Assembly (NCBI GenBank): GCA_016124935.1
Contig: WGMS01000001.1
Location: 1-64,000 of the forward strand
Reading direction: 5' to 3'
DNA from: a bacterium
Lineage (GTDB): Bacteria; Cyanobacteriota; Vampirovibrionia; Obscuribacterales; Obscuribacteraceae
DNA: 64,000 nt
The notes beneath the pieces are model-generated. The model searched no databases, had not been told where the DNA came from, and worked only from the letters and a program-made list of their open reading frames with translations. Below are positions 37,235-39,966 of the stretch, in pieces (position 1 is the stretch's first letter; every line of letters begins with the position of its first letter). A program made the position numbers and the translations under genes.

Positions 37235-38407
37235 ATGTCAAGATCCGCAATCTCTCCAATAAGCGCAATGCTGGTCATTCTCCTGGGGCTTTCGTCCGGG
37301 CCGAGCTTTGCCGCCGACGCGCTCTTGAAGGGAGACTCCCAGAGAGTAAGGGTCAATAAGCTTCTGGGCAATATCCACTGGCACCAGTCCCTTGCCCAGG
37401 CCCAGACCGATGCCCGCAGCCGCAACAAGATGATCTTCTGGGTCAACATCCTGGGAAGGCTGGATAGAGACACGTGAAGTGCCGGCAATAGCTTACGGGC
37501 CGTGAGCCTGTCCCAAGACCCTGCCTATTCCGCCCTCAAAAACTATTTCGTCTGCGGTTTCAAAGACATCACCAACGAAAGCTATTCTGGTATGTCCGGA
37601 CGTCATACGACCTTCGGTAATGCGGTGAACACCACCAACGGAGCCGGTCCCCGCAACCTGCAGCTCTTCATGCTCTCTTCCGACGGAACAGTATTGCATT
37701 GTCTGCCCGGCTACTGGAATTCGCGGGATCTTGTCTATGAGATGATTTTCGCCGCCCAGTTAGATGAGGTCTACAAAGACCGCAGCCTAGGCGCCAGGGA
37801 AAAAGCCGAAAAGTTTCGGACCATGCAACTGGCCCATGCCGCCCAGCATCCGAAGCAGATGAGCAATCGCAGCCGTATGCAGGGTTTCGACCAGCAGTAC
37901 GAAGCGAAGAACCGCCTTACTGAAACCGATACGATAAGGGACGTCAACGCCGTCAAAGCGGCTTTGAAAACCGACTCTCATATTCCGGGCTATGCCTTCA
38001 AGACCACCGACGTGCTTCTGCACGAAAGGATGGCGTCGCGACCGTTTGTTCATTACAGCCGCTTCGATGTGGCGAAGTTCTCCGACTATGGCAAGCCTAT
38101 ATACGATAAGAACGAAGATCAAAGAGACGTCAGGACCGGTGAGACCATCGTCCACAATGGACATAAAGACCTTATCGGCAATCCGATTGCCCTTGCCAAG
38201 CAGAAATACGGCAAAAAGTGGCGCAATTACGTGGACGACCCGTCATCGGCAAAAGGCTGGGGCGAAAGCAATAGAGGAGCCGGTCAGGGAGCCTGGACCG
38301 ATAGCGGCCAACAATCCCGGGCGAGAAGCTGGGGAGACTACCAGAGTCAGGGTAGCCTCTGGGGCCAGGAGAACGACTCTCATAATAAGCAGAAAAAAGG
38401 CAAGTAG
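37235..38407 (+). CDS. Thioredoxin-fold exported protein with in-frame TGA: candidate selenoprotein
   Basis: Two open stretches (37235-37474 and 37478-38407) lie in the same frame, separated only by TGA at 37475-37477. Read through, they give a 390-residue protein: signal peptide (AMLVILLGLSSGPSFA), then KMIFWVNILGRLDRDT, residue 81 = TGA, SAGNSLRAVSLS, FVCGFKDI, and a cis-Pro-like GPRNLQLFMLSSDGT. The TGA thus falls where a thioredoxin fold has its active-site Cys, at the start of the first long helix. A hairpin fitting a bacterial SECIS follows at 37491-37507. The downstream piece has no ribosome site of its own (GTG 37502 lies within the hairpin). Gly/Trp/Ser-rich C-terminus. Alternatives: a nonsense mutation or sequencing error. 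Confidence 0.7.
37491..37507 (+). promoter_or_regulatory. Candidate bacterial SECIS hairpin
   Basis: GCTTACG (37491-37497), loop GGC (37498-37500), CGTGAGC (37501-37507): seven pairs with one G-U, and a three-base loop with G in its first two positions. The loop begins 20 nt after the in-frame TGA, within the 16-37 nt range known for bacterial SECIS elements, which SelB binds to decode UGA as selenocysteine. Confidence 0.55.
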
Positions 38408-38730: not shown

Positions 38731-39966
38731 ATGAGTCGTTTAGTACAGAAATTTGGCGGCACCTCGATAGCCGATGTGGCCCGCATAAAGAAGGCGGCAG
38801 AGATAGCAGTCGAAGCTGCCCACAATGGTAATGAGGTGGTGACGGTGGTTTCGGCCATGGGTGATACCACTGATCATCTGATCGAACTTGCCGAACAGGT
38901 CAACAGCACTCCCAGCCCCAGGGAAATGGACATGCTGCTCGCCACCGGCGAACAGGTTTCGATAGCCCTGATGTCTATGGCTATTCAGAATCTCGGTTAT
39001 CAATCCCGCTCTTTTACCGGTGCCCAGGCCGGTATCATCACCGAGCCCAATCACGGTCTGGCCAAAATTCAGAAAGTCCAACCCGATGCGGTAGACGCCA
39101 GCCTGGCCCGGGGAGAGATTGCAGTTATAGCCGGCTTCCAGGGAATTACTCCAAACAACGAATTGACCACCCTCGGTCGCGGCGGCTCCGATACCACCGC
39201 AGTAGCGCTTGCAGCAGCGCTCGGCGCCGATCGCTGCGATATCTATACCGATGTAAAAGGAATTTACACCGCCGATCCAAGGCTCCTCTCGGAAGCCCAG
39301 AGGCTTCCAGCTATCAGCTATGAAGAGATGGTCGAGCTCTCTTCCACCGGTGCCCAGGTGCTCGCTGCCACATCGGTGGAGCTGGCCATGGACTCGAACG
39401 TTCCTGTCAGGGTACGCTCCACATTCGAGCCCGGTGATGACGGCACTCTCATAACCAATCGACTGGTATCACCCGATTACACTGTCTGTAGCATATCCTG
39501 CGATATGACCCAGGCAGCAATCACGATCAAATCCGAGAACGCCAGACTGGATGGTATCTCCAATCTCTTCACCAGGCTTCAGGAGCTCGGTATTCATACC
39601 GATATGCTGATGCTGCTCGCCCATGAAGATGAACCAGCTCAAGAGGTAGCTTTCACCGTAGAGCAGAGAGCGCTCGGTCGGGTCCAATCGATAATAGAAT
39701 CGAACGGCACGGCCCTGGGCAATCCGCGCTCTTCGGTAGACACGGATGTGGCCAGAATATCGGTGGTGGGCAGAAGACTGACCAGCCGTCCCGAAATAAT
39801 CGCCAGCGTTTTCGAAGCTCTTCAGGTAGGGGGCATTCCGGTAAACATGGTAGCCACCGGCGATATCAGGGTCAGCGTGGTGCTGCCTGCCAAGTATGCC
39901 CGCAAAGCGGTGCGTTTGATTCACAGCAAATTCGGTTTGCATGAAGGATGTTTTATTGCCCACTAG
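38731..39966 (+). CDS. lysC: Aspartate kinase
   Basis: A 411-aa protein with VQKFGGTSIADVARI at the start, VVSAMGDTTDHLI, LATGEQVSIALM, and GRGGSDTTAVALAAAL with YTDVKGIYTADPR. Two C-terminal ACT domains (about 265-340 and 345-411, including VARISVVGRRL) provide feedback control by lysine and/or threonine. It phosphorylates aspartate, the first step to lysine, methionine and threonine. The family start codon is used. Alone in its transcription unit as far as visible. Confidence 0.95.
   Translation: MSRLVQKFGGTSIADVARIKKAAEIAVEAAHNGNEVVTVVSAMGDTTDHLIELAEQVNSTPSPREMDMLLATGEQVSIALMSMAIQNLGYQSRSFTGAQAGIITEPNHGLAKIQKVQPDAVDASLARGEIAVIAGFQGITPNNELTTLGRGGSDTTAVALAAALGADRCDIYTDVKGIYTADPRLLSEAQRLPAISYEEMVELSSTGAQVLAATSVELAMDSNVPVRVRSTFEPGDDGTLITNRLVSPDYTVCSISCDMTQAAITIKSENARLDGISNLFTRLQELGIHTDMLMLLAHEDEPAQEVAFTVEQRALGRVQSIIESNGTALGNPRSSVDTDVARISVVGRRLTSRPEIIASVFEALQVGGIPVNMVATGDIRVSVVLPAKYARKAVRLIHSKFGLHEGCFIAH

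Follow-up and report, generated by a model that had tools for sequence, protein, structure and literature searches.

The window, by which we mean the whole stretch of 64,000 nucleotides that was analysed, carries on its forward strand a reading frame that begins 28 bases past a urocanase gene and runs from an ATG at 37235 to a TAG at 38407, with a sole in-frame TGA at 37475–37477. The features of the locus are as follows.

37235..38407, + strand: predicted selenoprotein gene of 390 residues with selenocysteine (Sec) at position 81 (ORF reading, homologues and AlphaFold2)
37235..37312, + strand: signal-peptide-like N-terminus, residues 1–26 (judged by eye)
37475..37477, + strand: TGA most likely read as selenocysteine (U81), motif DT-U-SAGN (TGA/Cys in homologues)
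37491..37507, + strand: hairpin with loop GGC from the sequence-only reading, a minor alternative fold
37495..37511, + strand: predicted bacterial SECIS hairpin ACGGGC-[CGUGA]-GCCUGU, stem from +18 and loop from +24
38731..39966, + strand: neighbouring gene for an aspartate kinase-like protein, an amino-acid kinase carrying ACT domains (profile match)

The sequence-only reading had described an otherwise intact gene broken by one TGA, with a signal peptide before it and a GPRNLQLF segment after it. The frame is indeed open save for the TGA, which falls on residue 81, and both segments are present, the N-terminus being signal-peptide-like. The GAGP segment (136–139) precedes a strand, and the cis-Pro-like role given to it in the sequence-only reading is tentative. 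To the eye, most N-termini of the family likewise resemble signal peptides, their start codons being taken from a simple script. An amino-acid kinase/ACT gene lies downstream in two other loci (L023 and L028) as well; we do not propose a functional link between this neighbour and the selenoprotein gene.

The gene was found in 28 of 60 related genomes, the window's own counted, and often in multiple copies; the window genome has three copies of the branch with the T-U-SAGN motif (branch 1), on contigs C1, C4 and C15. Among the 63 distinct sequences spanning the site (window included), the codon for residue 81 was TGA in 62 and a Cys codon in one, and TAA or TAG occurred in none. For this count contained sequences were removed, near-identical sequences from related MAGs were kept separate, and L070 lay outside the reach of the underlying tblastn search. 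TGA also occupied the U81 column in all six loci from a named genome collection, titled Candidatus Obscuribacter, Candidatus Obscuribacterales, Cyanobacteria/Cyanobacteriota MAGs and, in two cases, just bacterium. Minor variants of the motif occur, SAAN and SAGH among them, and it does not contain the CxxC, UxxC or CxxU pattern of thioredoxins. The expectation that homologues would have Cys or TGA at residue 81 was borne out, since Cys was also read in 19 of the 19 loci examined outside the class; a conserved in-frame TGA is thus paired with Cys in homologues, the pattern by which selenoprotein genes are recognized.

The sole Cys form seen in branch 1, L063 (G009:C80:32300-35100), has TGT at the site. 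In the tree it is nested among Sec forms and pairs with L084 (support 99/93), so that Sec was probably lost there. Its SECIS-loop codons have also changed, GTC TCT replacing the otherwise frozen GTG TCG.

That an ordinary gene was split, by nonsense mutation or by sequencing error, would explain why a frame lacking Pfam matches above the cut-off contains a stop. Against this stands the recurrence of TGA, never TAA or TAG, at one codon in many assemblies, and a sequencing error at the window TGA is implausible because the search of 60 genomes met the same TGA in 26 others. Purifying selection also continues past the TGA. Both regions were computable in 6 of 11 pairs, with dN/dS after the TGA of 0.01–0.07; in five of these six the value was lower than before the TGA, and one pair (L049/L051) had almost no changes. 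For the family as a whole, the pseudogene explanation is refuted by the TGA recurrence and the dN/dS after the TGA, and we consider a split gene vanishingly improbable. The TGA at 37475–37477 is real and most likely encodes selenocysteine.

The same values bear on a regulated truncation, in which an 80-residue protein would be the main product and read-through would be occasional or selenium-dependent. UGA decoding is inefficient, which speaks for such a scheme. However, the truncated product would stop before the predicted helix 82–91 and most of the fold, and the lower dN/dS after the TGA argues for a full-length product; we regard the truncation as highly unlikely.

The machinery named in the sequence-only reading was detected in full. 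The window genome (4.40 Mb in 43 contigs, 89% complete) encodes selA (518 bits), selB (270.9 bits including a neighbour in frame, cut-off 242), selD (372 bits) and a tRNA-Sec with anticodon TCA (74.1 bits), that is, the whole set of SelA, SelB, SelD and tRNA-Sec expected where bacteria make selenoproteins. No formate dehydrogenase alpha matched above the cut-off in this genome. Over the 60 genomes, the gene and selA occurred together in 26, the gene only in 2, selA only in 4 and neither in 28 (Fisher p = 2e-10); within the same family of 36 genomes the corresponding numbers were 23, 2, 4 and 7 (p = 0.001). These statistics ignore kinship, and related genomes are not independent. The two genomes with the gene and no detected selA are each about 65% complete. 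Four genomes (G007, G017, G021 and G031) contain selA and gave no match to the selenoprotein gene; they should carry other selenoproteins. In G015 (G015:C267:18289-19189) the selA match is split in two and the match to the selenoprotein gene is a fragment, which may reflect either an assembly error or decay.

Read-through of any kind would also explain conservation after the stop, and the TGA could be decoded as an amino acid other than Sec, either by near-cognate read-through or through a changed code. However, of 28 long ORFs chosen from the window, 6 end in TGA, so a wholesale code change is absent; the Sec machinery is present; the homologous residue is Cys; and a SECIS-like hairpin is conserved whose codons vary in the Cys homologues, as described below. 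Decoding as another amino acid is therefore extremely improbable in our estimate, and Sec remains the preferred reading of codon 81.

The sequence-only reading had pointed to a 7-bp hairpin with loop GGC, starting 14 nt after the TGA and with its loop 20 nt after it, and had likened it to bacterial SECIS elements. That hairpin can form, with its stem from +14 and its loop from +21, so that 20 nt separate TGA and loop, but it is a minor fold: its pair probability in the window was 0.11–0.12, against 0.85–0.87 for the neighbouring 6-bp hairpin with loop CGUGA at 37495–37511, which is the one conserved across the family. The further argument that such a hairpin would hardly follow a TGA by chance is modest when based on geometry, as 57 of 3000 synonymous recodings reached the window's hairpin score (the best-scored hairpin there being the GGC-loop one), and it is conservation among homologues that carries the case well past chance. 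Across the family the recoding test is weak alone, with 5% or fewer of the recodings reaching the score in 26 of 62 members.

Constraint on the RNA is visible in codon choice. Codons +6 to +12 of the 62 branch-1 TGA genes had a synonymous entropy ratio (observed to expected) of 0.33, and 34 conserved positions elsewhere one of 0.89 (Mann-Whitney p = 7e-5, kinship ignored). Genes with the majority residue used GCC at +8 in 59 of 59 cases and GTG at +9 in 60 of 60, and the frozen codons fold as GAGAGC-[CGUGUC]-GCUCUC. Low synonymous entropy was also seen at codons +1 to +5 and +14. Glu at codon +14, outside the hairpin, is GAA in 41 of 42 branch-1 genes; the window has Asp at this codon (37517–37519). 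In the 19 Cys genes from outside the class, the ratios at codons +6 to +12 ranged from 0.66 to 1.39, and low ratios fell elsewhere (for example at −7, −1 and +3).

The hairpin was compared in alignment A3, which comprises 60 branch-1 and 8 branch-2 rows and leaves out L125, L126 and L120. The loop starts with CGTG in 66 of 68 rows and with CGGG in 2, and when the best of three registers is taken, 67 of 68 rows form five or six of the six pairs and L123 (sister branch) only four. All six pairs form in the main register in 53 sequences and five of them in ten; the window forms its six after a shift of one, and after a shift of two there are two sequences with six pairs and one with five. This last set (L047, L077 and L079) forms a clade with support 100/99. 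The three nearest tree relatives of the window (L034, L028 and L035; clade support 97/94) have an AGC serine codon in common with it and adopt a bulged-U fold; for the main register they were given a score of five pairs. In the main register 94.9% of cells were paired, against 91.8% in shuffles (0/500 as high), 8 cells were changed on both sides against a shuffle mean of 0.9 (0/500), and the covariation score was 0.164 against 0.129 (0/500); the other two of the five measures, both-side-changed pairs (2) and pair types, lay within the shuffles (43/500 and 327/500).

The eukaryotic SECIS model RF00031 (SECIS_1) gave no match anywhere, the controls likewise, and its silence is therefore uninformative. 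As far as the bacterial model is given in the part of the 2026 inventory consulted (PMC13188914), it has a loop of 3–9 nt, a stem of 4–16 bp, a G in loop positions 1–2 and a spacing of 16–37 nt, and the window hairpin agrees with this geometry (5-nt loop CGUGA, 6 bp, loop from +24). The energy threshold in the same portion of that source is −7.5 kcal/mol or lower; the bare 17-nt hairpin has −7.2 kcal/mol and the 60-nt fold −14.5. A hairpin of 5/6 bp downstream of Sec TGAs has been described in other bacteria, according to an excerpt of PMC4607533.

More distant relatives form a sister branch (branch 2) with the motif FC-U-TNARLAR, in which the TGA directly follows a Cys codon. Cys-TGA was found in 10 of the 11 branch-2 loci loaded; the remaining one, L128, has one TGA, whose position was not placed. 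Alignment A1 consists of 53 rows (49 of branch 1 and 4 of branch 2) from 66 generated references; L060, in which the site is not covered, was left out, as were L054 (two TAA) and L090 (one TAG) from A1. A profile comparison of A1 with A2 gave a probability of 99.9–100 and is partly circular because the same four branch-2 genes are in both alignments. The window protein alone reached five branch-2 genes with E of 4.2e-4 or better, four of which were found again by tblastn (38.5–45.1 bits).

The window genome has a fourth copy (L120; G000:C3:63500-66200, minus strand), which reads APC-U-PGGRLMRTVSLS, with its TGA lying within L120:1212-1283, and is a candidate for the fourth selenoprotein of this genome. 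It matches Thioredoxin_7 weakly (E = 3e-4, below the curated cut-off). Used as a query, it gave single-TGA matches in G006 (two), G002 and G009 and two weak matches in G010; the TGAs of these matches were not placed by the motif pattern. A search of the window genome with a covariance model built on the TGA region listed, at E < 0.01, only the three branch-1 copies and not the one on contig C3.

A sample of 386 genomes of the phylum gave matches in 25, namely the window's own and 24 outside its class, and none of the 24 out-of-class matches had an inner stop. All 19 out-of-class loci examined (L101–L119) read SCANSRFFR, with Cys in the Sec column of branch 2, and these Cys homologues (SCANSRFFRVALY) have open frames of 391–475 residues. 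Three of them were scanned against Pfam and NCBIfam, with no match above the cut-off. The genomes are presumably those of photosynthetic cyanobacteria.

The AlphaFold2 model (53 sequences; pLDDT 85, pTM 0.79) has a thioredoxin-like domain, followed by a helical region and, from about residue 341, a low-confidence tail. In the model residue 81 lies between a strand (66–72) and a helix (82–91), which agrees with the sequence-only reading in placing the TGA where a strand gives way to the first turn of a helix, the site of the reactive Cys in thioredoxins. In a Foldseek search of the PDB, thioredoxin-like structures ranked first, with a best E of 1.5e-3 and none at E 0.001; the ten best matches had probabilities of 0.97–1.00 and are thioredoxin-like proteins. 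Weak fold matches included DsbH-like proteins, the C-terminal domain of DsbD and AGR proteins. A phmmer search of the PDB with the window protein found no match, and profile searches gave weak matches only. In Pfam and NCBIfam no model exceeded its cut-off for the family proteins scanned. Cys107 is conserved in 43 and Cys156 in 46 of the 49 branch-1 rows, and His124, His201, His205 and His263 are each present in all 49.

Taken as a whole, the case supports the selenoprotein interpretation: homologue conservation, the machinery, the constraint on the RNA and the fold are supported by computation, and from these we infer that Sec is inserted and SelB bound, and also the export, the redox chemistry and the substrate. 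We consider it very probable that the gene encodes an exported selenoprotein of thioredoxin-like fold, with UGA81 read by SelB with the help of the CGUG-loop hairpin, and that the product is most likely a periplasmic oxidoreductase or peroxidase-like reductase. SelA, SelD and tRNA-Sec would yield Sec-tRNA, which SelB would deliver to UGA codon 81 by means of the hairpin 18 nt downstream, whose loop starts with CGUG. In the thioredoxin-like product the selenolate would head the first active-site helix, and the protein would most likely act as a periplasmic thiol/selenol oxidoreductase or a peroxidase-like reductase; the predicted fold and the position of the Sec residue point to this exported function. 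Since T-U-SAGN has no vicinal Cys, resolution of the oxidised selenium in branch 1 would fall to Cys107, to Cys156 or to a thiol from outside the protein. The vicinal Cys of FC-U-TNAR could serve in this role in the sister branch.

A selenoprotein without redox function, in which Sec binds a metal or organometal, could use the four invariant histidines as ligands, and a CxxU or UxxC motif is absent. The thioredoxin-like fold with Sec at the redox position argues against this, and the Cys replacement elsewhere is compatible with both chemistries; we find metal binding unlikely and prefer the redox function.

A wider, tentative proposal, for which we see somewhat less than an even chance, is that these proteins form a large superfamily of thioredoxin-fold selenoproteins, exported and duplicated many times over, with at least three branches (T-U-SAGN, FC-U-TNAR and PC-U-PGG). 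Most of the Sec used by Obscuribacterales, on this view the part of the cyanobacterial phylum that decodes Sec, would go into this superfamily, which would be kin to the active-site domain of selenoprotein N, and would have a SECIS that slides in register and keeps its CGUG loop.

The family, which belongs to non-photosynthetic relatives of cyanobacteria, looks new, being absent from the family libraries and the inventory searched, and Sec insertion itself is known biology. By our reading of Table 1 of PMC13188914, none of the 119 families or subfamilies that this inventory counts has the T-U-SAGN or FC-U-TNAR motif, and its text is free of the strings "cyanobacter" and "melainabacter"; it also cites a groundwater-MAG survey with unvalidated selenoprotein candidates. 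In the passages at hand, a 2022 review (PMC9312934) states that Sec use is apparently lacking in Cyanobacteria, and another paper (PMC5029168) brings in Cyanobacteria only for an orphan selD in Prochlorococcus. An extract of a 2022 proteome survey (PMC9529120) gives a single annotated Sec in the Melainabacterium protein PWT95605.1, with no family named; this protein may belong to the same family as the window protein or to another. No other report on selenoproteins of Melainabacteria or Obscuribacter was found by title among the matches listed for the open-access literature. Annotation pipelines probably truncate these genes. A lineage of the cyanobacterial phylum has the full Sec pathway together with a selenoprotein family in several copies, other lineages of the phylum have the Cys forms, and Sec/Cys exchange is now open to study inside one phylum. 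The SECIS with three registers and a near-constant loop offers a natural experiment on SelB recognition.

Among known systems, selenoprotein N (SELENON) has a Cys-Sec pair, SCUG, in a thioredoxin-like motif, according to an excerpt of PMC12839072. The Cys-Sec pair FC-U of the sister branch recalls this motif. The PDB searches with the family (phmmer and profile) brought up no SELENON chain. The sequence flanking the SELENON Sec site may also resemble that of the sister branch. The SECIS of fdhF is likewise a hairpin just past the UGA, with G-U in its apical loop and a bulged U, and a bulged-U fold occurs in some family members; its sequence differs from that of the family hairpin. The proteins of the Thioredoxin_7/DsbH type (DUF255) and the VPGUxxT proteins have the thioredoxin-like fold in common with the family. 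VPGUxxT type 1 matched L068 with E = 4e-4, below the curated cut-off; for the models NF041382 and NF041383 the window protein was not listed, and L068 scored 19.9 bits against a cut-off of 350. In contrast to these proteins, the family has Sec in T-U-SAGN or FC-U-TNAR instead of VPGU or CxxC, and an extra helical region follows its thioredoxin-like part.
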